Part shown: one piece after another, positions 3,610-22,918 of the stretch
Numbering within the stretch: position 1 is the stretch's first letter
Layout of the letters: every line of letters starts with the position of its first letter
Virus record (IMG/VR): IMGVR_UViG_3300033148_002811
Span: 19,550 to 42,467 of that record
Direction: 5' to 3' (one strand)
DNA from: a virus
DNA: 22,918 nucleotides
Notes under the pieces: generated by a model
Told to the model about the DNA's origin: nothing
What the model saw: only the letters and a program-made list of their open reading frames with translations
Database searches by the model: none
Translations under genes and position numbers: made by a program

Positions 3610-4728
3610 ATGAAGCTCCGCGTCGGCTCAGTCTCAAGCGGCATAGGCGGCGACGGCGTCGCGTGGCACCCACTCGGGTGGGAGTCCGTGTTCTTCTCCG
3701 AGATTGCGCCGTTCCCATCGGCCGTCCTGGCTCACCGCTTCCCCGACGTGCCGAACCTTGGGGACTTCACCGCCGCCGACTTCTGCGAGCGAGCGCGGAC
3801 GTGCGGCAAGATCGACATCCTGGCTGGCGGCACTCCGTGTCAATCGTTTTCGATAGCTGGCAAGCGCGGAAGTCTTGAGGACGACCGCGGGAACCTGACG
3901 CTCCGCTTTGTGGAGGTAGTCCATGAACTCGACCCAACAATCGTTGTTTGGGAAAACGTGCCCGGCGTCCTCAGCACCAGGGACAACGCTTTCGGATGTT
4001 TCCTCGCTGGAATGGTGGGAGAGTCCGAGTCGCTTGAGAGTGGCCTTGAGCGCGGGCGGTGGCCGAACGCGGGTGTGGTTGTCGGACCCGTCCGAACCCT
4101 CGCATGGCGCGTTCTCGACGCTCAGTACTTCGGCCTGGCCCAGCGTCGGCGCCGCGTGTGTGTCGTTAGCTTCCGTACTCGAGACGGGATCAATCCCGGA
4201 GCGGTACTTCTTGAGCCGGAAAGCCTGCGCCGGGATTCTCCGCCGAGCCGTGAAGCGGGGGCGGGAGTTGCCCGCTCTGTTACGGCAAGCACTGAAGGCT
4301 GTAGCGAAAAAGAGCAGCAGCACTCCTTCATGCGAGAAGACGGCGAGCCGCTGAACCCGCTTGGAATACCAGCGATATCGCCAGCGATCAACGCACGCGA
4401 TTCGAAGGGACCAAGCAGCGACGGACCGCCTTTGATCCCAGTCGCCCCCACCCTCCGCGTCCGCCGCCTGACGCCGCGCGAGTGCGAGCGGCTGCAGGGT
4501 TTCCCGGATGGCTGGACGCGTATCCCGTGGCGCAAGAAGAGCCCAGCGTCCTGCCCCGACGGGCCGCGTTACAAGAGCCTCGGCAACGCGTGGGCGACGA
4601 ACGTCTTTCGCTGGATCGGGTGGCGGATAGAGAAGGTGCTCAAGACCGAGGCCATGGAGGAATTCCCCGACCATGCAACCACCAAGGACACCAAAAGCGG
4701 CAAGGCGAAGAAAAGGGAGACGGCATGA
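3610..4728 (+). CDS. DNA (cytosine-5)-methyltransferase
   Basis: The enzyme transfers a methyl group from S-adenosylmethionine to C5 of cytosine in a specific DNA site. All main motifs are present in order: motif I 'SSGIGG' near the N-terminus, motif IV 'GGTPCQSFS' with the catalytic Cys77, motif VI 'WENVPG' with Glu115, motif VIII 'QRRRR' from residue 178, a variable target-recognition region at about residues 190-280, motif IX 'RLTPRECERLQGFPDGW' and motif X 'SLGNAW'. The 372 residues are typical. No cognate endonuclease is seen, so it looks like an orphan phage methylase, probably protecting phage DNA from host restriction. A 60-base gap with no clear terminator precedes it; its own Shine-Dalgarno is weak. 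Confidence 0.93.
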   Translation: MKLRVGSVSSGIGGDGVAWHPLGWESVFFSEIAPFPSAVLAHRFPDVPNLGDFTAADFCERARTCGKIDILAGGTPCQSFSIAGKRGSLEDDRGNLTLRFVEVVHELDPTIVVWENVPGVLSTRDNAFGCFLAGMVGESESLESGLERGRWPNAGVVVGPVRTLAWRVLDAQYFGLAQRRRRVCVVSFRTRDGINPGAVLLEPESLRRDSPPSREAGAGVARSVTASTEGCSEKEQQHSFMREDGEPLNPLGIPAISPAINARDSKGPSSDGPPLIPVAPTLRVRRLTPRECERLQGFPDGWTRIPWRKKSPASCPDGPRYKSLGNAWATNVFRWIGWRIEKVLKTEAMEEFPDHATTKDTKSGKAKKRETA

Positions 4729-5140: not shown

Positions 5141-5563
5141 ATGGAAAAGTGGCAGGGTGTACACGTAGAGGTCCAATTACCCGAAATGCCGCTGGAGTAT
5201 TGCGGCCCGAACTACGAAGCCGAGTGCCGCGCGCAGTGCGAACAGATAATTCAGCAGATCATGCGGCATGTGGACTTCGTCGGTGACGCAGAGATCAAAG
5301 AGGGCTGGAGTAGCTGGGAACTCGTTCGTAAGGTCGAAGCACTTGAGGCCCGCGTGGTGGAGTTGAAGGAGGCGCTGGAAAAAGCGGCAGAAGAAGACGA
5401 GCACGAAGCGTGGAACTGGGCGCAGTCGAGCGACATGCATGTCCGAGAAAATACCTTCGAGGAGTGGCGGGCTGCGCATCCGTCAGATATGCGCAAGGCG
5501 CTTAAGAAGGACGGAGGCGGCAGCGAGGGCGCATCTCACTGGTCCGGCTTGCCGAGCAGGTAA
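5141..5563 (+). CDS. Hypothetical coiled-coil protein
   Basis: I start at ATG 5141, 6 bases after GAGGAGG; an in-frame ATG at 5126 would place that ribosome-binding site inside the gene. The 140-residue protein is acidic, with a likely coiled coil at about residues 62-90 ('VRKVEALEARVVELKEALEK'-type heptads). The C-terminal 'SHWSGLPSR' is encoded by the first copy of a 59-bp direct repeat whose second copy precedes the primase gene. No family is recognised. Confidence 0.65.
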   Translation: MEKWQGVHVEVQLPEMPLEYCGPNYEAECRAQCEQIIQQIMRHVDFVGDAEIKEGWSSWELVRKVEALEARVVELKEALEKAAEEDEHEAWNWAQSSDMHVRENTFEEWRAAHPSDMRKALKKDGGGSEGASHWSGLPSR

Positions 5564-5587
5564 TCAGAGAGGAGACCACATGAAACT
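5529..5587 (+). repeat. 59-bp direct repeat, copy A
   Basis: This segment runs from the end of the coiled-coil gene through the ribosome-binding site and first codons of the next gene. It aligns without gaps to 6227-6285, with 49 of 59 positions identical by hand count. Shared blocks are CACTGGTCCGGCT, ATCAGAGAGGAG (containing the Shine-Dalgarno) and CATGAAACT (start codon). The two copies flank the Ala/Trp-rich gene. Confidence 0.8.
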
Positions 5588-6281
5588 CTATAAGCTGACC
5601 GATCAGAAGATGCGGACATACAATGACTTTCAATGGGAGCTTGGCCGATGGTATGAAACGAGCGGAGAGGGCGACCTCTGTGGTCCGGGCTGGCTGCACT
5701 TCCACACTAACCCGCTGTTGGCAGTGCTGTTCAACTCAATCCATGCGGACTTCAAGAATCCAAGACTCTTTGAGGCCGAGGGAGAGATAGGCAAACGTAA
5801 CTACAATATCAAAGTGGGATGCAAGCGCGGGCGCGTCGTGAAAGAAATCGAGCTACCAGAGATCACAACAGCACAGCGCGTGCGGTGGGCCATTCTGTGC
5901 TCGTTGGAAGCCTGCGACCAGCCGGAATACAAGCGGTGGGCGGCAGACTGGCTGTCGGAAAAAGACAGGACGGTGGCGGCGGCGTGGGCGGTAGACTGGC
6001 TGTCGGGAAAAGACAGGACGGCGGCGGCGGCGTGCGCGGCGGCAGCGGCGAGGACGGTGGAGGTGCCGTTGGTGGCGGCGGCGGCGGAGGCGAGGACGGC
6101 GGTGTGGGCGGCGGAGGCGGCGGCGTGGGCGACGGCGGCGGCCGCGAGGGCAGCGGCATGGACGGCGAAGGTGGCGAGGACAGCGGAGGCGGCGGCATGG
6201 GCAGCGGAGGCGGCGAGGACGGCAGCGCGCATCCCACTGGTCCGGCTCGCAAAGCAAGCTATCAGAGAGGAGGTCGCATGA
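5580..6281 (+). CDS. Phage protein with conserved N-domain and Ala/Trp-rich repeat tail
   Basis: The 233-residue protein starts at ATG 5580 behind AGAGAGGAG. Residues 1-115 form a compact domain beginning 'MKLYKLTDQ', with 'FQWELGRWYETSGEGDLCGPGWLHFHTNPLLAV', resembling small phage/bacterial domains of the DUF7666 type in which an 'Gx..Y...g...lC..G.H...npl' core recurs. From about residue 119 the chain is a repeat tail: two 16-residue units, WAADWLSEKDRTVAAA and WAVDWLSGKDRTAAAA, then a long run of AAA/AAW/ART triplets. Repetitive (A/W)AA tails are known from phage proteins of this kind and probably form helices or a solenoid. Function unknown. Ends in ATGA overlap with the primase. Confidence 0.75.
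   Translation: MKLYKLTDQKMRTYNDFQWELGRWYETSGEGDLCGPGWLHFHTNPLLAVLFNSIHADFKNPRLFEAEGEIGKRNYNIKVGCKRGRVVKEIELPEITTAQRVRWAILCSLEACDQPEYKRWAADWLSEKDRTVAAAWAVDWLSGKDRTAAAACAAAAARTVEVPLVAAAAEARTAVWAAEAAAWATAAAARAAAWTAKVARTAEAAAWAAEAARTAARIPLVRLAKQAIREEVA
5940..6035 (+). repeat. Tandem 48-bp repeat (two units)
   Basis: Two adjacent 48-bp units (5940-5987 and 5988-6035) encode two 16-residue repeats of the Ala/Trp-rich protein. They differ at only a few bases (for example CAGAC versus TAGAC, GGAAAAAG versus GGGAAAAG, GGTGG versus GGCGG), which points to a recent in-frame duplication. The GGCGG-rich sequence continues to about 6225 as a degenerate simple repeat. Confidence 0.85.
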
Positions 6282-7492: not shown

Positions 7493-7673
7493 ACATTGCC
7501 GCATCTACTACCGGGAGCCCGCCGGAGAGTGGGGCGATCATCCATGCCCGCGATGCAGGCGGGGACCGGGCGACGATAACGAGCGGTTCGATGACAATTA
7601 TCCGGACATCGACGCGCGGCCCATTGGACGCATGGCATCCTTCGAGGATGATATGGATGAGGACGACAAATGA
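7479..7673 (+). CDS. Small zinc-ribbon protein
   Basis: A 64-residue protein that starts inside the end of the primase gene (ATG 7479). Two CxxC pairs, 'CRHC' at residues 4-7 and 'CPRC' near residue 23, form a short zinc ribbon or knuckle, and the rest is a very acidic tail. Such proteins commonly bind nucleic acid or a protein partner, but no specific role can be given. Its stop overlaps the start of the next zinc-ribbon gene (ATG 7670), so primase and both zinc proteins form one translated unit. Confidence 0.7.
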   Translation: MAYCRHCRIYYREPAGEWGDHPCPRCRRGPGDDNERFDDNYPDIDARPIGRMASFEDDMDEDDK

Positions 7674-8200
7674 CCACGCATGCGACTGGACTCAAGTGCG
7701 CCACCGGCGCTCGGCGCTTCTGCCCCCGGTGTCAAGCGCTGCGAAAGACCAACGTGCTTGATACCTGCCTGGATCCGCACAACCGCCGTCGCCGGCGGCT
7801 TGTCTGCCGGGAGTGCGGCGAGAGGTGGACGACGTACGAGCTGCGGCGCGACGAACTCGGGATGTGGGCCTCAATGCCGCAGCGCGTGTTCGATGCGGCG
7901 CTCGTCCAGATACGCGAGGCCTGCGCGAGCCTGGATATCCACAAGGACGCCATCGTGGCGGCGGCTCGGGCCGTCCGGGAGACGGTCTGCCCGGCCGGAG
8001 CGCCTCTGCCGCCCAAGAACGCACTTCTGGAAGCCGCCCGCGCGGCGACGGAGGAGGTGCTGCGCGGCCTCCATCCCGTGGCCCACGTCCGCTACGCGCT
8101 GGCCATGCGATGCCGCTCGGCTGCCGACTGCCTGGGCGTCCTGGCCGAGCACATGGTCACGCCGCAACAGAACGGAAGCGAGTCGCCACGGTTCAGATAA
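7670..8200 (+). CDS. NrdR-like zinc-ribbon/ATP-cone-like protein
   Basis: The 176-residue protein has a zinc ribbon, Cys18-x2-Cys21 and Cys46-x2-Cys49, with the spacer 'VLDTCLDPHNRRRRRLVC' and the following 'CGERWTTYE'. This closely matches the NrdR N-terminus (CP.C...V.DtR......RRRr.C..C..RfTTyE). Residues 65-165 resemble the ATP-cone part of NrdR: 'VFDAALVQIREAC', then 'LRGLHPVAHVRYALAMR', comparable to the family's L..L..vAYvRFAsvYr ending. Bacterial NrdR represses ribonucleotide reductase genes in response to bound nucleotides. The protein is a little longer than typical NrdR (about 150), with an extra N-terminal segment. The zinc-ribbon match is clear; ATP-cone homology is an inference. 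Confidence 0.72.
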   Translation: MTTHATGLKCATGARRFCPRCQALRKTNVLDTCLDPHNRRRRRLVCRECGERWTTYELRRDELGMWASMPQRVFDAALVQIREACASLDIHKDAIVAAARAVRETVCPAGAPLPPKNALLEAARAATEEVLRGLHPVAHVRYALAMRCRSAADCLGVLAEHMVTPQQNGSESPRFR

Positions 8201-11556: not shown

Positions 11557-12192
11557 ATGGTTGGCAAGAAGACTGCATTGGCAGAGACGTTCCCATCCGA
11601 AGTTCGCAATCCTGCAACTGTCACAGATGCTCAGCTAAATGCCCTAGCACCTGACGGTTTCACACCAACTAATGCTATGCGAGCATTGGCAAGAGCACGC
11701 ATCATAGCTCTGCCGGGTGCAACGACTGCGGAAGTTGCCAAGAGCATCAACTTGAATCCCAATACCGTCTATACGTGGCATCACAAACACCCATTGTACC
11801 ACATTTGGGAAGCCAATGTTCTCATGTATATGTGCCGACGCGCCGTCCCGCGCGTCTGGCAGAAAATCTTGGAGCAAGCCGAGGCTGGATGCAAAACCTC
11901 ACAGAAGCTCATAGCACAGCGGTTTGACAAGGGTATGCGCAAAGAGCCTGAAAAGGACAGGGAAACAAGCGAGGAAGAGCTTGCGAGTATTGCCAAAAGA
12001 GCTCGTCGGTTGGGGGCATCATGCCCTACAAGGCAAGATGTCTCTGGCGCGCGGCAGGCCCAGGCGGCAGTCGCACCCGATGCCGATGCCGATGCGACCC
12101 CGGCGGGGGGGGAGTCCGACTTTCTGTATATATGTACGGACCCCTCTCAAAATACCGATGGCGAAAAATCGCCCGATACTAGGAGTGCATAG
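11557..12192 (+). CDS. Putative terminase small subunit
   Basis: The 211-residue protein has an N-terminal helix-turn-helix-like part: 'ALARARIIALPGATTAEVAKSINLNPNTVYTWHHKHPLY' at about residues 45-85, the pattern of phage small-terminase DNA-binding domains that recognise the packaging site. A helical middle ('ILEQAEAGCKTSQKLIAQRF') could form the oligomer core and the tail is polar and disordered. It opens the packaging operon, but the large subunit lies 3.5 kb downstream. The ATG at 11557 lacks a clear Shine-Dalgarno, so an internal start is possible. Its base composition is visibly less GC-rich than neighbouring genes. It could instead be a regulator with the same domain. Confidence 0.62.
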   Translation: MVGKKTALAETFPSEVRNPATVTDAQLNALAPDGFTPTNAMRALARARIIALPGATTAEVAKSINLNPNTVYTWHHKHPLYHIWEANVLMYMCRRAVPRVWQKILEQAEAGCKTSQKLIAQRFDKGMRKEPEKDRETSEEELASIAKRARRLGASCPTRQDVSGARQAQAAVAPDADADATPAGGESDFLYICTDPSQNTDGEKSPDTRSA

Positions 12193-12416
12193 TGAGGCTT
12201 CTGCGCGTTTACGGCGAGATGGATTGGGGTGTTGCGGTTCGGATCGTTCATGGCGATATACCTCCGTACTCCGGCCGCGACATTGTGGTTGACCTGTACG
12301 CATCTCGTCTAGAGCGCCTGAAGGGTTGGCTGCATTGTCGCATCAAGGCGCTCTGGCGGGCGTTTTGGGGCATTCCGGTGCCGAGGAAATGGTACGAGAT
12401 CGAAGGAAGTGCCTGA
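12192..12416 (+). CDS. Small hypothetical protein
   Basis: A 74-residue basic protein starting at GTG 12192, which shares a base with the preceding stop; AGGAG lies at 12181. It contains many aromatic and basic residues ('RLERLKGWLHCRIKALWRAFWGIPVPRKWYEIEG') and no clear membrane helix. No family is recognised. The 116 bases after it (12417-12532) show no gene. Confidence 0.5.
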   Translation: MRLLRVYGEMDWGVAVRIVHGDIPPYSGRDIVVDLYASRLERLKGWLHCRIKALWRAFWGIPVPRKWYEIEGSA

Positions 12417-12532: not shown

Positions 12533-12880
12533 GTGGCGAAGGATGCGAAGCCGAGCGTGGTGGTGTCGAGTGATGCGGAGAAGAAGCCTTCGAAGATTGC
12601 CGACACCGAGATTGTGAAGGTCAAGGACGAGCCGAAGGCGGCCTGCAAGTGGCGTCAGGAGTATAAGTCCTGTGGCGTCCTCTGCGGCTGGACCTGTGGT
12701 CTGGAGCCGACGGTTCTCTCGAAGATCGAGGTGGTCGAGAAGGGCGAGATGGTCGAGGTTGATGGTCCGCCGGAGCCTCGTTGGTGCAACGCGCCGCGCG
12801 GCGAGAAGCCGCCCCACAACTGTCCTCTTCGCGACGGCGTGCGTACGATTGGCGGCGTGCGCTACATGATCGCGAGGTAG
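12533..12880 (+). CDS. Cysteine-rich hypothetical protein
   Basis: The 115-residue protein starts at GTG 12533 just after GGAGGTGAC. A Lys/Glu-rich N-terminal third is followed by 'CKWRQEYKSCGVLCGWTCG' (four Cys within about 15 residues), then 'RWCNAPRG' and 'HNCPLRDG', so six Cys and a His are spaced like zinc ligands. It may be a zinc-stabilised phage protein of unknown function. It lies 16 bases upstream of the dehydratase gene and probably shares its transcript. Confidence 0.65.
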   Translation: MAKDAKPSVVVSSDAEKKPSKIADTEIVKVKDEPKAACKWRQEYKSCGVLCGWTCGLEPTVLSKIEVVEKGEMVEVDGPPEPRWCNAPRGEKPPHNCPLRDGVRTIGGVRYMIAR

Positions 12881-12896: not shown

Positions 12897-13889
12897 GTGA
12901 AGCGCATCCTTGTCACGGGTGGCTGCGGGTTCATCGGCCACCATTTCGTCGAGCATCTTCTACGCGAGACGGATTGGGAGATTGTCGTTCTCGACAAGCT
13001 GACCTACGCTTCGACGGGGCTTCGCAGGTTGCGTGACATTGAGGCATTCGACGGGGGCCGGGTGAAGGTGTTTGCGGCGGACCTGGCTGAACCCTTGGCC
13101 CCGTGTCTCAAGGACGAAATGGGCGAGTTTGACTACATCGTTCACATGGCCGCCGAGACGCATGTTGACCGGAGCATCGAGGACGCGCGGTCTTTCGTGA
13201 AGGCGAACGTTCTTGGAACGCTCGGCATTCTTGAGTACGCGCGCGAGGTCGAGCCTGACAGGATGGTTTACTTCTCGACCGACGAGGTGTTTGGTCCCGC
13301 GCCTGAGGGCCGGGCATACAAGGAGTGGGACAGGTACAACAGCGGCAATCCCTACGCGGCGACGAAGGCTGGGGGGGAGGAGTTGGCCCTGGCCTTCCAG
13401 AATACCTACGGAGTCCCGGTTTTCATCACGCACACCATGAACGCCTACGGGGAGCGACAGCACCCTGAGAAGTTCATTCCGAAGGTGATCCGCAAGGTCC
13501 GCGACGGGGAGATGGTGACGATCCACGCGGACAAGACGCGCACCGTGTCGGGGAGTCGGTGCTGGATTCACGCGCGCGAGATTGCCAACGCCCTGACGTT
13601 CCTGCTTCCGGTCGGCGTGCCGGGGGAGAAGTACAACATCGTGGGCGAGGAGAAGTCCAACCTCGATATTGCGTTGATGATCTCTTCTTTGATGCCTGCG
13701 GAGTGCCCTTCGCTTAGTTACGAGATGGTGGACTTCCATTCGAGCCGGCCGGGGCATGATCTCAGGTACGCGCTCGACGGCAGTTTCCTCGCATGTCGGG
13801 GATGGAAACCGACGCTCTCTCTCGAGGAATCGCTCAGGAAGACGGTCGAGTGGACGCTGGCTCGGCCCGAATGGCTGGAGGCTCGGTGA
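12897..13889 (+). CDS. NAD-dependent nucleotide-sugar 4,6-dehydratase (RmlB-like)
   Basis: A 330-residue extended SDR enzyme. The Rossmann motif 'GGCGFIG' is at the N-terminus. Catalytic residues are visible: Thr128-Asp129-Glu130 ('STDEVFG', the TDE motif typical of dTDP-glucose 4,6-dehydratases) and Tyr153-x3-Lys157 ('YAATK'). Further family marks are 'HMAAETHVDRSI' and 'NAYGERQHPEKFIP'. The likely reaction converts an NDP-hexose to its 4-keto-6-deoxy form, the first step to amino and deoxy sugars. The substrate (dTDP- or other NDP-sugar) cannot be fixed. Starts at GTG 12897 behind GAGGAGGT; ends in GTGA overlap with the acyltransferase gene. Confidence 0.9.
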   Translation: MKRILVTGGCGFIGHHFVEHLLRETDWEIVVLDKLTYASTGLRRLRDIEAFDGGRVKVFAADLAEPLAPCLKDEMGEFDYIVHMAAETHVDRSIEDARSFVKANVLGTLGILEYAREVEPDRMVYFSTDEVFGPAPEGRAYKEWDRYNSGNPYAATKAGGEELALAFQNTYGVPVFITHTMNAYGERQHPEKFIPKVIRKVRDGEMVTIHADKTRTVSGSRCWIHAREIANALTFLLPVGVPGEKYNIVGEEKSNLDIALMISSLMPAECPSLSYEMVDFHSSRPGHDLRYALDGSFLACRGWKPTLSLEESLRKTVEWTLARPEWLEAR

Positions 13890-14458
13890 AGCAAGGGATG
13901 CTTATATACGGCGCGGGCGCGTGGGGCGAAATGGTCGCCGAACTGTTCGGTGATTACATGCCGGTGGTCGGTTTCGTCGATGACCACAAGAAGCAGGGTT
14001 CCGAGGTCGGAGCTTTTGAGGTTGTGGGAAACGCGGGAGCGCTCAGGGGGCTTGCGGAGGATCACGAGGAATGCTTCGTTGCTATCGGCACGAATGAGCT
14101 TCGCGAGGCGGTGTTCGCGCGTGTCGAGAAGGCGGGTTTCACGATACCGTCGCTCGTTTACCCGACCGCGCTTGTGAGCACGTCCGCGAAGATTGGTGCT
14201 GGGGCGCTCGTGATGCCTCACGCGGTTGTCGAGACAGGCTGCACGGTTGGCAGGGGGGCAATCGTGAACACGGGCGCCGTGGTCTGCCATCACTCGGAGG
14301 TAGGCCTATTCGCGCACATGGCGCCAGGGGCGAAGTGCGGCGGGCATTGCATGATTGGTGCCCGGGCGCTGGTGGGGATCAACGCGGCGGTGAATCGGGG
14401 CCTTGAGATTCTGGAGGATCAGGTCATTCCGAGCGGGAAGGCGGTCTTCTTCCAGTGA
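13886..14458 (+). CDS. Sugar O/N-acyltransferase (NeuD/PglD-like)
   Basis: The 190-residue protein starts at GTG 13886, after GGAGG and overlapping the previous stop. The N-terminal half has a Rossmann-like UDP-sugar-binding domain ('LIYGAGAWGEMVAELF', 'VVGFVDD'), and the C-terminal half is a left-handed beta-helix of hexapeptide repeats ('AKIGAGALVMPHAVVETGCTVG', 'NTGAVVCHHSEVG', 'MAPGAKCGGHCMIG'). His293-like catalytic His is present as the 'CHHSEVG' pair. This is the NeuD/PglD family, which acetylates sialic acid or amino-sugar nucleotides. Placed between a dehydratase and an aminotransferase gene, an N-acetylation of an amino sugar is plausible but unproven. Confidence 0.85.
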   Translation: MKQGMLIYGAGAWGEMVAELFGDYMPVVGFVDDHKKQGSEVGAFEVVGNAGALRGLAEDHEECFVAIGTNELREAVFARVEKAGFTIPSLVYPTALVSTSAKIGAGALVMPHAVVETGCTVGRGAIVNTGAVVCHHSEVGLFAHMAPGAKCGGHCMIGARALVGINAAVNRGLEILEDQVIPSGKAVFFQ

Positions 14459-14673
14459 TCGTCGCAGCGGCGGTACGACTTTCGGACGAGACTGTGTTGC
14501 AGTCGAGCATACGGTTGGGTCCGGGCGTATCAGATTGCGCGCAGTATCACGACTTGGTGCGCGACGCCGTGGAGATAGCCGTCAAGGCCCGTGGCGACAG
14601 CGAATGCGTGGGTACGTTTACGGTGTCGGACTCCGAAGACTTCGTGGAGGTGTTGGAGAGGGAATTGGCGTGA
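14455..14673 (+). CDS. Small hypothetical protein in sugar cassette
   Basis: A 72-residue acidic protein with a GTG start at 14455 overlapping the stop of the acyltransferase gene and a stop overlapping the GTG start of the aminotransferase gene. It begins with a hydrophobic strand ('IVAAAVRLSDETVLQSS') and ends with a helix ('DFVEVLERELA'). The start resembles small phage proteins that begin 'IVAAAIR..dG.v..g.RH', but I do not claim a function. Translational coupling on both sides argues that it is real and belongs to the cassette. Confidence 0.65.
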   Translation: MIVAAAVRLSDETVLQSSIRLGPGVSDCAQYHDLVRDAVEIAVKARGDSECVGTFTVSDSEDFVEVLERELA

Positions 14674-15722
14674 TACCGTTCTGCAGGCCCAACGCGAAGC
14701 CGACCCAAAACCTGATGTGCGAGATACACAAGGTTCTCGCGTCGGGGCGGCTGGCGTTGGGTCCGAAGACGAAGGAGCTTGAGGCTCGCGTGGCCGCGTT
14801 CGTCGGCGCGAAGTACGCGGTGGCAGTCTCAAGCGGGACCGCCGGGCTGATGCTTGCGGTCAAGGCGGTGGACGCGAAGCGCGTTGCTGTCCCGAGCTTC
14901 ACCTACATGGCGAGCGTGCATGCGATCAAGTGGGCCGGGGCGACGCCTTTCTTTGTCGATATCAGTTCTCGCTCGCTTTGCATGAGCCCTCGCTCGTTTG
15001 CCGAGGCGACGGAGGGGACGGTCTGCGATGCGATCATGTCCGTGGCCGCGTTCGGGCATCCGGTGGAAGTGCCGAAGACCCCGCCGTACATGATCGTGGA
15101 TGCGTGTTCGGCGTTTGGTGTGCCCCATAACAAGCATGTGCTGATGACGGTCTATTCGCTTGGCCCCACGAAGCAGGTCACGGGATGCCAGGGCGGCGTG
15201 ATCGTCACAAACGAGGGATATGTCGCGAGACGACTTCGCATCATGCGCCGGCAGGGGTACGAGGACGGCAATCGCAGCGCAACGATGCCGGGCCTTAACG
15301 CGCAACTCTCCGAGGTCCATGCGGCTATCGCGCTCTCGCAGGACTTCAGCCGAGCGGTGGAGTCTCGCAAGCGCGTGTTCCTCGCGTATCGGGCCTTGCT
15401 GGGGGATTTGAAAGACGTGACGCTGACGACATTTCCCGAGGACCACACGGCGCTGCACTTCCCAATCATGGTCAAGGATCGCGAGGCATTCCTTGACAGG
15501 CTGGAAGGCATCGAGGTGCAGACATACTTCGATCCGCCGTGTCACTTGCAGGAGGCATTCAAGCATGAGCCGCGGTTGATGTCGCTTCAGACGACAGAGC
15601 ATGTCGCGCGGCGCATTGTTTGTCTGCCGGTGATCGACATGGAGACGGCCGAGGAAGTGTCGCGGCGCGTGAAGGCCGCGTTGGAGGTCGGGAGTGGCGT
15701 ACTCGCGGCAACAGCAGATTGA
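14670..15722 (+). CDS. DegT/DnrJ/EryC1-type sugar aminotransferase
   Basis: The 350-residue PLP enzyme transfers an amino group to a keto-sugar nucleotide. Family marks in order: 'IPFCRPNAKPTQNL' start, 'LASGRLALGPKTKELEARVAAFVGAKYAVAVSSGTAGL' (PLP phosphate-binding SSGTAGL), 'VPSFTYMAS', 'VDACSAFG' (ring-stacking Asp region) and 'GPTKQVTGCQGGVIVTN', in which Lys168 should form the PLP Schiff base. The usual His of the DAAQAhG motif is Phe here. Starts at GTG 14670, overlapping the preceding stop. With the upstream dehydratase it could make an amino-6-deoxy sugar; which carbon is aminated is unknown. It overlaps the large terminase gene by 29 bases. Confidence 0.9.
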   Translation: MIPFCRPNAKPTQNLMCEIHKVLASGRLALGPKTKELEARVAAFVGAKYAVAVSSGTAGLMLAVKAVDAKRVAVPSFTYMASVHAIKWAGATPFFVDISSRSLCMSPRSFAEATEGTVCDAIMSVAAFGHPVEVPKTPPYMIVDACSAFGVPHNKHVLMTVYSLGPTKQVTGCQGGVIVTNEGYVARRLRIMRRQGYEDGNRSATMPGLNAQLSEVHAAIALSQDFSRAVESRKRVFLAYRALLGDLKDVTLTTFPEDHTALHFPIMVKDREAFLDRLEGIEVQTYFDPPCHLQEAFKHEPRLMSLQTTEHVARRIVCLPVIDMETAEEVSRRVKAALEVGSGVLAATAD

Positions 15723-17157
15723 GCAAATCCGCGAGCGATGCAGGAGCGACCCGTGGTTCGCAATGACCGAGTTCGTTTGGACAGAAGACCCGCAGGCGCT
15801 CCCGGGAGAGCGCAAGCGGAAGTTCCCGAATTACGGATATCTGTTTCGGGCGCTGACTTCGATGGTCAAGGAGGTAGTGACACTCGTGCCTAAGTCGAGA
15901 CAGTTACTTCTAACCTGGTTGATTTGCGCCTACGCGGTGATCGTGGCGGCGTTCGCGCCGTCCGGTCAGGTGCTTGTGCAGTCGGAGACTGAGACGAAGG
16001 CGAAGAAGCTCATTCTCCGCATGGGCTACATGATCCGGCATTTCCCGAAGTGGCTTTTGCCGTGCCGCGTGGACGTGAAGAAGTCCGAGATATGCTTCGA
16101 GTGGCCGAACGGCGACAGGAGCTATATCTGGTCTGTCGCGCACGGGCCGGATCAGGTAGCAAGCTACTCGCCAACGCTCGTGATCTTCGACGAGGCGACA
16201 CTCCAAAAGCATTTCGAGGCCGCATGGCTTTCGACGGCGCCGATCCTTCGCGGGAACGCCAAGGCGATTGCGGTCGGCACACCGCGGTGGCACGAATACT
16301 TCTACAGCCTTTGCACCAAGATCATGCCCGAGCGGGCCGTCACGGTTCACTACAAGGAACACCCGGGCTATCAGGCTGAAGCCGAGGAAATGGGCGGTTG
16401 GGACGCTTGGGCCAAGGCGAAGCAAAAGCTGTGGGGCTACATGCGGAAGGACGGCACGGTCGATCAAGCCAAGTGGGACCGTGAAATGGAAGTCAACTGG
16501 GACGTGACGGGCGAGGGGACAGTCGCATTCCCCGAGTTCAAGAGGTCGATTCACGTTCAACGACTCGGGCCAAACCTTGCATGGCCGGTGATCCGCGGAT
16601 GGGACTTCGGCTTTCACCACCCCGCATGCGTCTGGTTTCAGATTCACCCGCTGACGGGACAGCAGCTCATCTTGCGGGAGTTGATGGGCGAGGGTATTCA
16701 GCTTCACCAATTCGTCCAGCGGGTGCTTCGCGTCTCGCGCGAGCTGATGCCGGGCTGTACGCCCTATTCCGTGCCGCGCGGTCCGTTCGAGGACTTCTGC
16801 GATCTCGCGGGCTCGCAGCAGAAGGATGTTGGCCCCACGTCCATTGAGGTGCTGAACGAGAATCGCATCTACCCGAGCTACAAGCGGTCGAAGCCTATTG
16901 ATCGCGTGAAGCTGATTCGTCGGCAACTGGCGTCGATTCCGGACGGTCTGGTGCGGCGACCGGGGATGCTTGTCGATCCGTCGTGCGACACGATCATCCG
17001 GGGCCTGGCGGGTGGCTGCACGTTCAAGCATGACGATCATGAGACGGTCGATTTCGGCATTTTCCAGCACGTGTTTGACGCTCTCGGGTATGCAATGACG
17101 TTCAAGTTCCACCTTGGGGCAGTCGAGGCGAAGGGGCGGCGCCATGTCACCGCTTAA
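15694..17157 (+). CDS. terL: Terminase large subunit
   Basis: The 487-residue packaging motor cuts concatemeric DNA and pumps it into the prohead. The ATPase part has a non-classical P-loop region ('TLVPKSRQLLLTW', as in many terminases) and Walker B 'LVIFDEAT' with Asp166-Glu167, then coupling motif 'AVGTPRW'. The nuclease part has 'RGWDFGFHHPA' (first metal Asp) and the late 'HVFDALGYA' acidic site. The GTG start at 15694 lies inside the end of the aminotransferase gene, with TTGGAGGTCGGGA upstream. It is followed directly by head genes. Length and motif order are normal. Confidence 0.9.
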   Translation: MAYSRQQQIEQIRERCRSDPWFAMTEFVWTEDPQALPGERKRKFPNYGYLFRALTSMVKEVVTLVPKSRQLLLTWLICAYAVIVAAFAPSGQVLVQSETETKAKKLILRMGYMIRHFPKWLLPCRVDVKKSEICFEWPNGDRSYIWSVAHGPDQVASYSPTLVIFDEATLQKHFEAAWLSTAPILRGNAKAIAVGTPRWHEYFYSLCTKIMPERAVTVHYKEHPGYQAEAEEMGGWDAWAKAKQKLWGYMRKDGTVDQAKWDREMEVNWDVTGEGTVAFPEFKRSIHVQRLGPNLAWPVIRGWDFGFHHPACVWFQIHPLTGQQLILRELMGEGIQLHQFVQRVLRVSRELMPGCTPYSVPRGPFEDFCDLAGSQQKDVGPTSIEVLNENRIYPSYKRSKPIDRVKLIRRQLASIPDGLVRRPGMLVDPSCDTIIRGLAGGCTFKHDDHETVDFGIFQHVFDALGYAMTFKFHLGAVEAKGRRHVTA

Positions 17158-17405: not shown

Positions 17406-19160
17406 ATGGGTGAGACAGCAGCTCCGGTAACGAAGCACGGAGGTGCATGGAACGACTATCGCCGCTGTCGCGATGCGGCGCAGTCGTCTCTTGACGCGCG
17501 GCGGCGGAAGTACCGCATTGACTACCGTCAGGTGCTTGCCCGCGACATTTCTCCGAAGCCGTGGGGCGCAAAAGTCAACACGCAACTCACTCACACGCAG
17601 ATCATGGCGCTGACAGACCACGTAATCTCGGCGCTCTTGTCAACGTGGCCGTGGTTCGCCGGCGAGTCGCGCGAGCTTCCGATGGGCTGGCAGATCAATC
17701 GCGGCGACATGGAGGCGTGGGTGACGGCTGAGTTCAACGGCCAGCTTCGACAGCTTCATTTCTATCGGCATATTCGTCGCTGGCTTCGCCTCATGGCAAT
17801 AAAGGGGCTTGGCATCACGCGCATGTCGCTCGACCCCACGAGCATGCGTGCGCTCATCGCCCTCACGGACCCGGCGAACATGCTCTGGGACCCCGAGGCC
17901 ACGGCGCTCAGGCTTGATGCGAAGTGGGTCATGGAGGAAATGACTGTTACGATTGGCGATCTTCGCATGCTGGCCGAGAACCGCGATAGCGGTTGGGACG
18001 CGGGTGAGATTGAGATAGTGGCGCAGGGCGGCGCGGACGTTGCTGAGGCTCCACGCGACGAGGCCGCGCGCGAGCGCATAGAGGGCCTTGAGCGGGGTAG
18101 CCGCGAGGGTGACGGGCGAACTCTCAGGATTCGCGATCATGTCTATCCGGATCGGATTGTGACGGTTCATGACGAGTCGATGCGAGTCCTGGGCGAGCGC
18201 CCGAACGGGCTTGGCTACATCTACTATTACGATTCAAGCCTTTACCCTGAGGTCTTCGAGATTCAGGGCTTCTCGCTGCCCGAGTTGATGCGGGATATCT
18301 ATGACGAAATGTGCACGTCGAAGCGCCAGCGCATCGACAACAACAGCCTTTGCGCGAACCTCATGCTGAAGATTCGGCGCAGCTCGGGCCTCGACACCTA
18401 CAACATGATCGCGCGGCCGGGAATGCAGATTCCGGTCAACGACCCCGATGACGTGACCGTGCTTCAGCCGCCGCAGCTTGGGGGGGCGCTTCTCAACGAG
18501 GAAATGAAGCTCGAGAATGAGGCCTCGCGGCTGACTGGCATTGGCGCGCAGCAGCGCGGCGAGCGCGGCGAACAGATGAAGGCCACCGTCGCAAGCATTA
18601 TGAATCAAAGCGCCAATACCCGATTCGGCGCCAGCGTGAACGACATGGACGACTATCCGCTCCGCCCGTTCCTTCAGGATTTTGTGGACATCGCCATGAT
18701 GCGCGACGAGCCCGCCGTCGTGACGCGCGACGAATGGATGATGCTCAGGCGCGCGCATCAGGCGGGGCTTCTGAACCTCACGCCGAGGCCGGAATCGCAC
18801 ATCGGCAACGCCTTCGGCAAGGCTCAGGTCTTGCAGACGGTCTTCCAACTCGTCGCGCAGCACTTGGACCCGATTGGGCAAGGCGAGTTCCTGAAGCGGA
18901 TACTTGATCTCGTACAGGTTCGCGATCCCGAGAAGATCACGTCACATATGCTGCCCCCGAGTCTGGACCCGAATACCGCCGGAGTGATTCAGGGTCAGGT
19001 CGATAGCGCCATGCAGACCGCGCAGCCGGCGGGGCAAGGAGAGCCGGCGCGGATAGGTAAGCAGGTCGAGGAGACGACGACGGGCATCGGGCTACAGCAG
19101 GAGTTGGCCCGGGCGCTGGCCGAGGGACAGGCGGGCTTCAGAGCGGAGACTAGGGTATGA
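17406..19160 (+). CDS. Portal protein
   Basis: The 584-residue protein is placed exactly between terL and scaffold/capsid genes and has the length and make-up of podovirus/siphovirus portal proteins: an N-terminal helical region with 'WWPW'-like aromatic turn ('LLSTWPWFAG'), the 'DPANMLWDPEAT' segment where portals keep a D-P-x-x-[IV]-x-D/P turn, a long stem helix region ('LPELMRDIYDEMCTSKRQRIDN'), and a GIG-type crown/tail end ('ASRLTGIGAQQRGERGEQMKATVAS'). Twelve copies would form the ring through which DNA enters. Identification rests on these patterns and on gene order. The ATG at 17406 follows a short gap; its stop overlaps the next start (ATGA). Confidence 0.85.
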   Translation: MGETAAPVTKHGGAWNDYRRCRDAAQSSLDARRRKYRIDYRQVLARDISPKPWGAKVNTQLTHTQIMALTDHVISALLSTWPWFAGESRELPMGWQINRGDMEAWVTAEFNGQLRQLHFYRHIRRWLRLMAIKGLGITRMSLDPTSMRALIALTDPANMLWDPEATALRLDAKWVMEEMTVTIGDLRMLAENRDSGWDAGEIEIVAQGGADVAEAPRDEAARERIEGLERGSREGDGRTLRIRDHVYPDRIVTVHDESMRVLGERPNGLGYIYYYDSSLYPEVFEIQGFSLPELMRDIYDEMCTSKRQRIDNNSLCANLMLKIRRSSGLDTYNMIARPGMQIPVNDPDDVTVLQPPQLGGALLNEEMKLENEASRLTGIGAQQRGERGEQMKATVASIMNQSANTRFGASVNDMDDYPLRPFLQDFVDIAMMRDEPAVVTRDEWMMLRRAHQAGLLNLTPRPESHIGNAFGKAQVLQTVFQLVAQHLDPIGQGEFLKRILDLVQVRDPEKITSHMLPPSLDPNTAGVIQGQVDSAMQTAQPAGQGEPARIGKQVEETTTGIGLQQELARALAEGQAGFRAETRV

Positions 19161-19483: not shown

Positions 19484-19534
19484 TGGGAAGCGTGCGCTTC
19501 CGCGCGGGCGGTGCAGAAGGAAGGAGAGCTACAA

Positions 19535-20317
19535 ATGGAAAGTACGGGGATGTCGGACAGTCCCGAGTTCACGGGCGGGCTTGCCACTGAGCCTTCCCCG
19601 GACGACCTCGGGCCCGACACAGGCGCACCGTCGTCCCCCGAGGCCCCCGACGCGCCCCCGGCAGACGCCGGACAGGGCGAAGGCGGACAGGGCGAGGGAC
19701 AGGGCGAGGGTGGATCGCCGGAACCGGAAGGCCATCAGCTCAACCCTGAGGTCACACGGCTACAGCAGGAGTTGGCGGAGGAGCGGCGGCGTGCGGCGGC
19801 ACGGGAGGAGTTTCTGAGGCAGGAGCTTGAGGCCTCACGAAGCGCTCTCGCGCAGCCAGCTGCGGCTTCCGAGCCCGTCTTGGACCCCGACGCGCAGAGG
19901 CAGTTCGATGCCGCTCTCGCAGCAAGCTCTGTGGGGCGGAAGCTTCAGGCGTCGGCAGCCGGTGCGGTTGCATTGGCGACGGACGTCAGCCTGAGGGGTC
20001 GGGATCATTACGATGCCCCTGGCGTTCGAGAGGCGATCCTGCGGGACGTGAGTCGTGCGGGTGTTTCGGACCCGGCGCAGCTCGCCGAGGTCGCGGAAAT
20101 GGCCTATGACCACCATACGAGGTCGTTGCGAACCAACGAGGTAGCCGCTCTGAAAGCGCGGATTGCCGAGTTGGAGAAGCGCGACCGGGTCGCGAGTGGT
20201 GGACCGACAGGGGCTTCGACCCGCGCACCGGACGTACCAGCGCCGGGCGTCGAGGAGACGAGCGAGCAGTACCGTAATCGCATGGGACTGCCGCCCCGGA
20301 CTGCCTACGACGTTTAG
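19535..20317 (+). CDS. Putative scaffolding protein
   Basis: The 260-residue acidic protein starts at ATG 19535 (AAGGAGAG upstream). The first 70 residues are low-complexity Pro/Glu/Gly ('GQGEGGQGEGQGEGG'), then a coiled coil ('LQQELAEERRRAAAREEFLRQELEASRS', about residues 68-105), a middle helical part, a second coil ('NEVAALKARIAELEKRD') and a tail. This make-up plus position directly before the major capsid gene is typical of scaffold proteins that guide capsid assembly and are removed before DNA filling. No protease gene is visible in the window. Sequence similarity is weak in this class, so the call depends mostly on context. Confidence 0.75.
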   Translation: MESTGMSDSPEFTGGLATEPSPDDLGPDTGAPSSPEAPDAPPADAGQGEGGQGEGQGEGGSPEPEGHQLNPEVTRLQQELAEERRRAAAREEFLRQELEASRSALAQPAAASEPVLDPDAQRQFDAALAASSVGRKLQASAAGAVALATDVSLRGRDHYDAPGVREAILRDVSRAGVSDPAQLAEVAEMAYDHHTRSLRTNEVAALKARIAELEKRDRVASGGPTGASTRAPDVPAPGVEETSEQYRNRMGLPPRTAYDV

Positions 20318-20367: not shown

Positions 20368-21435
20368 ATGGCCACGGCTGCAACGCCAACTGTCTATTCG
20401 TATCCGGCGGGCGAAGCAGGCTCAATGGATGCGGCGACCGCGCAGCACTGGGAGAAGGAAGCCCTGGATACGCTGCGCCCGAACCTCATTTGCGCTGAGT
20501 TCGCAAAGAGGTCGGGGCGGGCAGGTGTGAAGCGCATACCGGTTCGCGAAGGCGACATCATCAACATGTGGCGCCTGCCGGAGCTGGACGCGCAGACGAC
20601 TCCGCTCGCCGAGACGGCCGCCGATCCGAATGCCTCGAACATCAGCGCCGCTGCGGTAACAGCGCGGTGTGCGGACTACGCTGATTACGTCAACGTGTCC
20701 CACAAGCTGCCCGTCGTGGCGGTTGCCGATCCCTTTGGGGAGTTCGGTGCCGCATTGCGCTTCGGCGCAATGAAGACGCTCGACGGACTCCTCAGGACCG
20801 AAATGACGGACAACGGGACCGCGCTGTACTTCGACGGGGAGACGGCCGCCCTGTCCGCCGCATCGACGCTCTCCGCGACGACACACAAGCTCACGCGCGC
20901 GGTGCTTGAGAGCATCGCCACCAAGCTCAAGGTCGAAAAGGTGCCGGTCTTCCCGAAGACCGGGGCCTACCTCTACGGCTCGCACCCCTACACGATCAAG
21001 GACGCCCGAGGCGACACCGGGACGGGTGGGTGGCTCGACGTGGAGAAGGCGCTGAGAGATCAGCCCGCGCACCTTCGCGGTGCGTTCATCGGTCGCATCG
21101 CCGGCTTCGACGTGTTGGAGTCAACGGAGATCGCGACCGCGGCGGACGGCGCGTCGTCCACGACCGTCTACCGCAACCTCTACGGAGGCTACGGTGGACT
21201 GGCCTACGTTTCCCTCGCGGGGAACTGGACGCCGCCCGAGGCCCGGACAGGGGATCTTATTCGCAAGGCAGGCTACAAGCCGCCCACGAAGAACATCCGC
21301 CTGATCTACAAGGGCTACAAGGAAGGTGGTCCGAGCAACCCGCTCGAAAGACGGGCGACGCTGGGCTACCTGTTCACCACGGCAGCCAAGGTGCTTGAGG
21401 CCGCGCGATGCGGCACTCACCTAGTCACGAGGTGA
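20368..21435 (+). CDS. Major capsid protein (N4-gp56 family)
   Basis: The 355-residue protein builds the icosahedral shell. It resembles the N4-gp56 family of HK97-fold capsid proteins: 'LRPNLICAEFAKR' near residue 36, 'IPVREGDIINMWRLPELDAQTTPLAETAADPNASNIS' (the vtf.R...l....TPLtEG..p segment), 'ARCADYADYVNVSHKLPVVA' (YG-yv..sD..), and a C-terminal part ending with 'TLGYLFTTAAKVLEAARC' where the family usually has a conserved gy....Aa.vl. Position after a scaffold-like gene and before a strong hairpin fits a highly expressed capsid gene. Confidence 0.85.
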   Translation: MATAATPTVYSYPAGEAGSMDAATAQHWEKEALDTLRPNLICAEFAKRSGRAGVKRIPVREGDIINMWRLPELDAQTTPLAETAADPNASNISAAAVTARCADYADYVNVSHKLPVVAVADPFGEFGAALRFGAMKTLDGLLRTEMTDNGTALYFDGETAALSAASTLSATTHKLTRAVLESIATKLKVEKVPVFPKTGAYLYGSHPYTIKDARGDTGTGGWLDVEKALRDQPAHLRGAFIGRIAGFDVLESTEIATAADGASSTTVYRNLYGGYGGLAYVSLAGNWTPPEARTGDLIRKAGYKPPTKNIRLIYKGYKEGGPSNPLERRATLGYLFTTAAKVLEAARCGTHLVTR

Positions 21436-21442
21436 ACCCATA

Positions 21443-21470
21443 GGTGGGGGGGGCCGAAAGGCCCCCCACC
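21443..21470 (+). terminator. GC-rich hairpin after the capsid gene
   Basis: GGTGGGGGGGGCC and GGCCCCCCACC form a stem of about 11 pairs with two unpaired G and a GAAA tetraloop (21456-21459). No T-run follows, so it is more likely a pausing, partial-termination or mRNA 3'-end stabilising element than a full intrinsic terminator. It separates the capsid gene from the ribosome-binding site of the next gene. Confidence 0.6.
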
Positions 21471-21485
21471 GCCGAAGGAGGATTC

Positions 21486-21857
21486 ATGGCGCGGTCAATG
21501 TTCGCATTCCAACTCAAGGAATTGCTGCGGGACGTTGCGGGTAACCGCTTCGAAATAGGGAGCTCCATCCGGAATCACTATCGCGAAGCGGGTATCTGTT
21601 TCGATGGACACTATATCGGCGCTTGCGAGCGGAGCGAAATGCCGAGGGACGATTTCGAGACGAGCGACCCGCACAAGCCCGAGAGAATGTACCTCTGGCG
21701 TGGCTGGAAAGAGGTTCTTCGGATACTCACCATGAGCGCTGGAGCCGTCCAGTGGATTCCCCGCAAAGTGCGGGCAAAGTTGCTGGAGACAGCCGAGAAA
21801 CGGGGTTGGCGTAACTGGATCGAGCCCCACGAGAGACAGGCGGTGGCCTTGCCGTGA
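21486..21857 (+). CDS. Hypothetical protein after capsid gene
   Basis: A 123-residue protein with ATG 21486 behind GAAGGAGG. It is basic with several Trp residues ('YLWRGWKEVLRIL', 'EKRGWRNWIEPHERQ'), looks helical and has no signal peptide or membrane segment. I do not recognise a family. The position after the capsid protein is where head-completion or decoration proteins often lie, but the GTGA overlap with the glycosyltransferase gene ties it to that gene too. Confidence 0.65.
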   Translation: MARSMFAFQLKELLRDVAGNRFEIGSSIRNHYREAGICFDGHYIGACERSEMPRDDFETSDPHKPERMYLWRGWKEVLRILTMSAGAVQWIPRKVRAKLLETAEKRGWRNWIEPHERQAVALP

Positions 21858-22813
21858 GGATCATGGTCACAAATTGGGACATGAACCGCACGGGTGGCAC
21901 GGAGACGCTTGCCGTCCGTCTTGTGCGCGCGCTCAACGCAATGGGGCACAGCGCATTCATTCTGACGCCCACGCGCGGGGCGTTCGCGCTCTGGAATCAG
22001 GACGTAGAGGTCGTGTTGCCATTCGAGCCGATGCAGGTCGAGAAGGCCCTGGACCTGGCGCGCGCGGAATACAGAAAGAAGCGGACGGACGCGGGCAAAG
22101 CTCGTATCGCGGAGTTGGAAGCGCAGGTAATGCCGAAGCCGGACGCGGCCATTCTCATGCACCCGCGCATATTTCCCGGCGTGACATTCCCCGAGAAGAA
22201 GGTCTATCTCGCGCTTGGGTGGGTTGGTGCGGAGAGCCCGGTCATGGGCGCCGCGCCCTACGTGGCCTTCTCCGACGAAGTGGCAACGTGGTTGAGTTTC
22301 TACGGCATCGAGAGTGAGGTCTGTTTCGCGTCCGTGGACTTGGACAGGCACACGCCTGGCCCGGCCTTGCGTGCGACGAATCCTCGCGTGACGCAGATCG
22401 CATCGCGCCCCCGAGATGTCGAGATCATCAAGCGCTCATGCGAGCGCGCCGGCTTCGAGTACGTTGACAAGCGGTGCGGGGCTCCGATCCGAAATCTTCC
22501 CGAGGTGTATCAGGACGTGGATATCGTGATCGGGACCGAGACGTGCATCAAGGAGGCGATGGCGTGCGGGCGTGCGGCCTACGTTTTGGGTCCGTTCGGC
22601 TGTGATGGATGGGTCACGCCGACCAACTGGCGGGATCACGAGCGCCACGCCTTCAGGGGGACGCTCGACCCAAGGCCGTTGACCGTTGATGGCTTGGCCG
22701 AGGAGTTGAGTGGGTATTCGCCCTTTATGGGGCGCCCGAACAGGCTCATTGCCGAAGAGAATTGGGACGTGCGAAAGCTGGCCGCACGTCTCTTGGAGAT
22801 CGCATGCGGGTAA
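21854..22813 (+). CDS. GT-B-fold glycosyltransferase-like protein
   Basis: The 319-residue protein begins 'MVTNWDMNRTGGTETLAVRLVRALNAMGHSAFIL', the N-terminal beta strand plus glycine-rich GGTE helix start that marks GT4-like (GT-B) glycosyltransferases. Later segments fit the donor-binding domain: 'QIASRPRDVEIIKRSCERAGFEYV', 'EVYQDVDIVIGTETCIKEAMACGRAAYVLGPFGCDGW' (the E-x7-E-like acceptor/donor loop of GT4, 'tetCIKEAMACG..a') and a short C-terminus. It is shorter than usual GT4 enzymes (about 370) and its donor sugar is unknown. GTG start 21854 overlaps the preceding stop. Confidence 0.75.
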   Translation: MRIMVTNWDMNRTGGTETLAVRLVRALNAMGHSAFILTPTRGAFALWNQDVEVVLPFEPMQVEKALDLARAEYRKKRTDAGKARIAELEAQVMPKPDAAILMHPRIFPGVTFPEKKVYLALGWVGAESPVMGAAPYVAFSDEVATWLSFYGIESEVCFASVDLDRHTPGPALRATNPRVTQIASRPRDVEIIKRSCERAGFEYVDKRCGAPIRNLPEVYQDVDIVIGTETCIKEAMACGRAAYVLGPFGCDGWVTPTNWRDHERHAFRGTLDPRPLTVDGLAEELSGYSPFMGRPNRLIAEENWDVRKLAARLLEIACG

Positions 22814-22918
22814 TTGGCGCCACGGTGATGATGGGGACGCTCGCGAAATGGCGCGAGTTTGTGCCGCATCTGCGCGAGCATGTCAATGGATGGATCGCGT
22901 GGAATCCCGGCGTACCTG
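22804..22918 (+). CDS. Start of a gene cut by the window end
   Basis: An open frame begins at ATG 22804, inside the end of the glycosyltransferase gene, and runs past the last base. The visible 38 residues begin 'MRVIGATVMMGTLAKWREFV' and contain 'NGWIAWNPG'. This start, a hydrophobic strand followed by a helix and a 'wi.wnpG'-like strand, is reminiscent of small phage glycosyltransferase-like proteins of the GT-A type, but too little is seen to assign it. Confidence 0.6.
   Translation, partial: MRVIGATVMMGTLAKWREFVPHLREHVNGWIAWNPGVP

Follow-up and report, generated by a model that had tools for sequence, protein, structure and literature searches.

Virion glycosylation has been described in mycobacteriophages, for which the primary paper is reportedly that of Freeman et al. 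2023. In phages such as Che8 and Rita, the major capsid protein (MCP) (and the tail tube protein) is reported to carry covalent glycans, and phage glycosyltransferases have been proposed or shown to be responsible (PMC11256854, PMC12619734); in the related phage Maravista, the glycosyltransferase genes are found close to the genome's 3' end and are thus separate from the left-arm structural genes (PMC11256854). In the literature searched, capsid glycosylation of phages was documented only for a few mycobacteriophages. Here we analyzed the right-hand 22,918 bases (the window) of IMGVR_UViG_3300033148_002811, a record of 42,467 bases from an uncultured virus, in which a cassette of sugar-nucleotide genes (12897–15722) precedes terL, the large terminase gene. 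Like the mycobacteriophages, this phage encodes glycosyltransferases; unlike them, it appears to encode donor synthesis too, all within a head operon of the SU10/N4-gp56 type. On balance, we favor the reading that the cassette provides the donor sugar for a virion-glycosylation module that the phage encodes within this operon.

The cassette also resembles the bacterial VioA/VioB, DesI and PglE/PglD-type pathways in its 4,6-dehydratase, C4 aminotransferase and left-handed beta-helix N-acyltransferase, a combination that yields 4-acylamido-4,6-dideoxy sugar nucleotides. It differs from these pathways in being phage-borne and in that no nucleotidyltransferase of its own was found in the record, and its specific sugar is predicted only. 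The same enzyme classes are found among the rmlB and gmd auxiliary metabolic genes (AMGs) of groundwater and marine phages, which are often annotated as O-antigen nucleotide-sugar biosynthesis; those reports derive a host-envelope target from pathway labels, whereas the gene context in the window points to the particle.

A coupled cassette for a likely amino sugar

The cassette consists of four plus-strand genes (Table 1): rmlB, a pglD/neuD-type acyltransferase gene (neuD), a 72-codon open reading frame (ORF; p72) and degT. Each internal junction is a start/stop overlap of the GTGA type: the rmlB stop (13887–13889) overlaps the neuD GTG at 13886, with ATG 13898 as an alternative neuD start; the neuD stop (14456–14458) overlaps the p72 GTG at 14455; and the p72 stop (14671–14673) overlaps the degT GTG at 14670. 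These overlaps bear out the translational coupling proposed in a first-pass annotation of this DNA, including that of the 72-residue protein on both sides. The terL GTG lies 29 bp inside degT, with a GGAGG just 5' of it. In simple scans, no promoter-like site was detected inside the cassette, and terminator-like sites were less frequent there than in shuffled controls. The cassette has a GC content at third codon positions (GC3) of 0.74–0.79, and in both GC3 and codon usage it matches the terL, portal and MCP genes; a recent raw insertion was therefore rejected. Its position within a rightward late block supports the earlier suggestion that sugar synthesis is timed with late expression. No relatives of p72 were found in family searches or among the viral loci searched.

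The three enzyme classes read at first pass (RmlB-like, NeuD/PglD-like and DegT-like) were confirmed by family matches far beyond chance. RmlB belongs to the extended short-chain dehydrogenase/reductase family (Epimerase, 4.5e-47; GDP_Man_Dehyd, 7.3e-45; each passing its cut-off), and the best of all families was dTDP-glucose 4,6-dehydratase (TIGR01181, 6.2e-81); since its score of 271.9 bits does not reach the equivalog cut-off of 365.1, the protein is named RmlB-like. Its STDEVFG (T-D-E) and YAATK (Y-x3-K) catalytic motifs align with those of solved RmlB, and its nearest solved structures are RmlB. NeuD passes the cut-offs of both PglD_N (1.3e-11) and Hexapep (8.6e-8) and also matches TIGR03570 (NeuD/PglB/VioB; 2.5e-45, 154.5 bits, below the 160.8 cut-off); its catalytic histidine is present, with VCHHSEVG aligned to IEHECVIG of PglD, and its nearest solved structures are a pilin glycosylation protein, PglD and a perosamine N-acetyltransferase. 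DegT matches PF01041 (2.1e-60, 205.3 bits against a cut-off of 19.8), with DesI as its best subfamily (TIGR04427, 1.5e-47, 162.6 bits; the equivalog cut-off of 650 is not reached) and PDB entry 2po3, a '4-dehydrase' that we take to be DesI, as its best structural match (1.7e-31). The lysine that binds pyridoxal phosphate (PLP) is invariant in the alignments, and the protein is ~25–35% identical to the relatives found. All three enzymes retain their catalytic residues, and the nearest families work with dTDP-glucose and aminate at C4.

DesI is an aminotransferase acting on C4 of dTDP-4-keto-6-deoxyglucose. Of the subfamilies suggested at first (FdtB, QdtB, PseC or WecE for the aminotransferase and PglD, FdtC or QdtC for the acyltransferase), PglD/NeuD was borne out, while FdtB/QdtB gave way to DesI. 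Given best matches to RmlB, DesI and PglD/NeuD and a record in which neither RmlC nor the 3,4-ketoisomerase FdtA was found (the FdtA search control was positive in just 1 of 14), a 4-acylamido-4,6-dideoxy sugar is the likelier product; a 3-amino sugar of the FdtB/QdtB type was considered less probable on the DesI subfamily, the 2po3 match and the FdtA result. In the proposed pathway, RmlB would convert host dTDP-glucose to dTDP-4-keto-6-deoxyglucose, DegT would aminate C4 and NeuD would N-acylate the amine to give dTDP-4-acylamido-4,6-dideoxyhexose, most likely dTDP-Qui4NAc. This likely product narrows the N-acylated amino-deoxy sugar nucleotide proposed earlier to dTDP-glucose and C4 amination; we infer the configuration of the hexose, the acyl group and the base. 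Because no RmlA-type nucleotidyltransferase was found in the record, the sugar would be built from host dTDP-glucose and not from scratch.

Glycosyltransferases linked to head genes

The record encodes two glycosyltransferases adjoining the N4-gp56 MCP: GT, in the window, and GT2, at the other record end. We propose that GT and GT2 would attach the sugar, on its own or as part of a short glycan, to a protein of the head or of another part of the virion during head assembly, all module genes being read from the late head operon. The substrate, the use of the donor by GT and GT2 and the virion target are likewise what we infer, the target from gene position only. GT is 33% identical to the gene at the same place in L120 (L numbers denote viral loci; L002 is the present record, including the end outside the window). 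The L120 GT2 gave a confident model (pLDDT 88.6) with a GT-B fold, nearest to GT4-type transferases and other uncultured-phage glycosyltransferases. A correspondence between the GT-A of L120 and the truncated ORF at the start of the record was unsupported (E 0.32).

A scan with a GT2 profile yielded 80 viral loci, from which MCP and adaptor profiles were built; the counts from this and from the rmlB, degT and terL scans concern best matches selected by pattern, not a random sample. Among the 80 GT2 loci, an MCP gene lay upstream in 47 and downstream in none (non-redundant set), and an adaptor gene downstream in 46 and upstream in none. Both flanks were present in 23 loci, with an interval of 1.4–9 kb. 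After removal of GT2s with at least 80% identity, 57 loci remained: 31 had an MCP gene less than 5 kb upstream, 12 a portal gene with no recognized MCP, and 5 had less than 3 kb of upstream sequence. An rmlB and/or degT gene was present in 18 of the 57, and all 18 had head genes. In contrast, GT2, rmlB, degT and neuD were absent from the fetched flanks of all 80 distant terL relatives (retrieved using a terL profile to which two spring-water phages contributed); these distant terL lineages do not share the sugar-gene trait. Two side observations concern the GT2 loci. A subset of ~560-aa GT2 proteins (L263, L270, L264, L254 and other loci) carries extra sequence relative to the 350–420-aa form, and small GroES-like ORFs, read from sequence, lie near capsid and GT2 genes (L146:3335–3598, L150:8974–9246, L263:9129–9392, L266:6484–6750 and L303:9136–9396).

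Sugar genes near terL or the MCP gene also recur in other uncultured phages. The RmlB scan of IMG/VR recovered one phage in two samples (L120 and L121; L252 and L335 represent this contig again, and L336 comes from a further sample), with identities to the window phage of 36–38% for terL, portal, MCP and GT2, rising to 55% for RmlB. Its gene order is exostosin-like gene, rmlB, GT-A glycosyltransferase, terL, portal, MCP, GT and GT2. In L120/L121, L098, L140/L141 and L303, terL has an rmlB gene upstream of it at a distance of less than 3 kb. The order in L140/L141 is a short ORF (which in L140 reads like terS, with no database match), rmlB, two GT-A-type genes, cytidylyltransferase, LicD-like gene, terL, portal, a weakly recognized capsid gene and GT2; that in L303 is a GT-A-like reversibly glycosylated polypeptide (RGP), DUF3431, rmlB, two small ORFs, terL, portal, MCP and GT2. 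L098, a contig myovirus-like by tail genes read from the sequence, has rmlB 110 bp before terL, and L093, which holds the nearest RmlB (tree sister, support 0.965), has it 6.7 kb before terL with transferase-like genes around. In L146, L149, L150, L180 and L216 similar sugar genes follow the MCP gene, those of L180 and L216 including rmlB, hexapeptide and degT genes in that order.

The RGP family PF03214, best known from plants, occurs in the phage glycan cassettes of L303 (846–1721, 6.6e-36) and L140 (10982–11860, 8.5e-10). In L098 (3414–9982), PrkA-type kinase, YeaH-like and SpoVR-like genes (named by reading the sequence), a set that forms a bacterial stress operon, stand directly before rmlB and terL.

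Named phages show comparable arrangements. In the cultured Streptomyces phage Zuko (MN204493), the order is ugd, GT, helix-turn-helix (HTH) gene, terminase, then portal–capsid genes. A UDP-glucose dehydrogenase, itself an enzyme of sugar-nucleotide metabolism, and a glycosyltransferase related to GT2 are thus encoded immediately ahead of the HTH–terminase–portal–capsid series. In contrast to the window, the sugar enzyme is a different one, the cassette lies upstream of the HTH gene and not between it and terL, and the tail genes indicate a long-tailed phage. Rhizobium phage RHph_Y1_11 (MN988558) has an epimerase, DegT aminotransferase and glycosyltransferase a few genes upstream of terL, followed by a ParB-like gene and an ORF, and differs in its GalE-like annotation, in a cassette with no PglD-type gene and in the stretch shown having no annotated capsid-linked GT. 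In the complete podovirus MW202801, genes for the MCP, oxidoreductase, glycosyltransferase, dioxygenase, methyltransferase, nodB-like protein and a second glycosyltransferase precede that for a stabilization protein. The DegT of Pseudomonas phage Y5 (H1) was discarded, as it reads as bacterial DNA in an unverified record. Since similar cassettes adjoin terminase genes elsewhere, this layout, described as unusual at first pass, is not unique.

Candidate targets of the sugar

DNA, virion protein and the host surface had all been named as targets. Two glycosyltransferase genes beside the MCP gene and a GT2 family tied to head genes favor a virion protein among them. Several points count against this preference. 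The glycan, the enzyme activities and the protein modification are predictions from sequence; the order of head genes alone cannot show what is glycosylated; and RmlB, NeuD and DegT each fall below their NCBIfam equivalog or subfamily cut-offs. GT is barely recognizable, and its AlphaFold model, from 3 sequences, is unreliable (pLDDT 44.8). The donor genes and the transferases are linked only through their presence in one genome, and GT2 relatives accompany many other sugar genes and often none. A recognized MCP or portal gene was present in only 15 of 80 rmlB-scan and 12 of 80 degT-scan loci, so that the tie to head genes belongs to the GT2-bearing phages and not to phage sugar genes generally.

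Host-surface remodeling, in which the sugar nucleotide would feed the lipopolysaccharide (LPS), capsule or another envelope glycan of the host and block superinfection or alter adhesion, is the alternative that survives best, though we consider it unlikely. RmlB and DegT are counted as classic O-antigen enzymes, but here both the cassette and the transferase genes sit among late-operon head genes, and GT2 is positionally tied to the MCP and adaptor genes. An integrase in the record suggests that the phage may be temperate, and in the stretch of a cyanophage that was read, rmlA-rmlB-rmlC-degT sits away from recognized head genes; on the other hand, no initiating membrane sugar transferase (Bac_transf family) was found. 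An envelope target is nevertheless the usual reading of phage rmlB-type AMGs, and groundwater phages with rmlB, rmlD and gmd have been so interpreted (PMC12911398, PMC10980836).

Decoration of DNA, whereby the sugar would be placed on a modified cytosine or other base before packaging to evade nucleases, appears improbable. The transferases sit with capsid genes and not with DNA-metabolism genes, although the adjoining packaging genes would fit the timing and the phage carries a C5-cytosine methyltransferase (3610–4728, PF00145 1e-38). The record yielded no thymidylate-synthase-like hydroxymethylase (PF00303), a weak test, and no Tet_JBP (PF12851) match in a search whose control was silent too. 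Precedents come from phage glycosyltransferases active in DNA hypermodification (Pyle 2024, as cited in PMC12619734) and from YerA41, which has a sugar cluster and DNA refractory to sequencing (PMC7354516). Production of a soluble or signaling metabolite, or carriage of the cassette as a decaying passenger, is very improbable: p72 has no relative in family searches and the product is predicted only, but the three catalytic centers are intact, coupling is tight, codon usage is adapted and other phages, too, have sugar genes next to terL.

The head operon and its significance

Gene orientation diverges at ~11.3–11.5 kb, with leftward genes on one side and the rightward late block on the other. 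The late block comprises, in order, an HTH protein, two ORFs with no family, the sugar cassette, terL, portal, probable scaffold, N4-gp56 MCP, a 137-aa ORF and GT. At the opposite end of the record, a truncated ORF and GT2 are followed by structural genes, among them one for an SU10-type adaptor, and by genes for an integrase and RecT. Both record ends fall within open frames, and these do not simply run on from one end into the other. The families of the portal and adaptor suggest that the phage is short-tailed and SU10-like.

Table 1. Features of the late block and of the opposite record end (window positions unless prefixed L002)
Feature	Position	Strand	Basis
HTH protein, putative terS, first rightward (late) gene	11557–12192	+	sub-threshold HTH and terS matches
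74-aa ORF	12192–12416	+	no family match
115-aa ORF, Cys- and Trp-rich	12533–12880	+	no family match
RmlB-like NDP-glucose 4,6-dehydratase	12897–13889	+	TIGR01181; catalytic motifs
PglD/NeuD/VioB-like left-handed beta-helix sugar N-acyltransferase	13886–14458	+	PglD_N, Hexapep, TIGR03570
p72, 72-aa ORF, coupled both sides	14455–14673	+	no family match
DegT-family PLP aminotransferase, nearest DesI	14670–15722	+	PF01041, TIGR04427
terL, start codon inside degT	15694–17157	+	PHROG terL 1.8e-19; 36% identity to L120 terL
Portal, SU10 type	17406–19160	+	SU10_portal 2.9e-11
Probable scaffold	19511–20317	+	only position between portal and MCP and acidic composition; L120 counterpart at same place
MCP, N4-gp56 family	20368–21435	+	TIGR04387 1.3e-19, 70.6 bits against cut-off 60
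137-aa ORF between MCP and GT	21444–21857	+	no Pfam match
GT, GT4-like, weakly recognized	21854–22813	+	Glyco_transf_4 0.0033, below cut-off
Further ORF, start only, cut by record end	22804–22918	+	
GT2 (other record end)	L002:486–1826		Glyco_trans_1_2 1.5e-8, above cut-off

The first-pass annotation had the cassette inserted between the small (terS) and large terminase genes. The terL side of this claim stands. On the other side, the ORF at 11557 is a putative, weakly supported terS (Pfam matches under the cut-off to HTH_Tnp_1, 4e-4, and HTH_23, 8e-4; several terS PHROGs, also sub-threshold, at E 0.009–0.09) with no relatives found in annotated phages, and two ORFs separate it from rmlB, so that a simple insertion is only partly right. 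Among distant relatives, terL itself is found in two or more ORFs with gaps (L008:4556–6289, L023:211–1964, L036:1208–3089 and L046:8265–10807), which may be introns, inteins or frameshifts.

Single-protein scans with terL, NeuD and DegT in viral contigs, and with DegT in genome contigs, found no close relatives, and the portal-profile scan found one relative species only, in three contigs. No RNA element was detected at Rfam gathering thresholds. Elsewhere in the record, a protein at L002:17564–18751 contains many near-identical ASGSARVYASGSASV-type repeats, probably a repetitive beta structure; a protein with a repetitive Ala/Trp/Arg-rich C-terminal half (window 5439–6281) directly precedes the primase gene; and an NrdR-like zinc-ribbon protein (window 7670–8200; PF22811 3.7e-5, below cut-off) lies within the phage replication module.

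Phage sugar-nucleotide genes, capsid glycosylation and DegT/PglD chemistry are already known; what appears new is the embedding in head genes, its recurrence across phages and the predicted self-made aminosugar. The literature search, which most subscription papers lay outside, returned no described head-operon glycan module with one glycosyltransferase family between capsid and adaptor and donor genes there or beside terL. We tentatively propose, as a generalization that may hold, that many short-tailed phages with an SU10-type portal and an N4-gp56-type capsid sugar-coat their heads through a variable glycan module of the head operon, placed between the capsid and adaptor genes and in certain phages near terL as well, and that some of them, this phage included, make the acylated amino-sugar donor themselves. 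If so, virion glycosylation would be a common trait, with GT2 fixed in the capsid–adaptor interval across dozens of uncultured phages and interchangeable sugar-nucleotide genes nearby or by terL. Nucleotide-sugar AMGs published for phages of this kind would then in many cases serve to decorate the virion and not the host surface, phage rmlB, gmd and degT would call for reinterpretation, and particle stability, adsorption and immune recognition could be affected.

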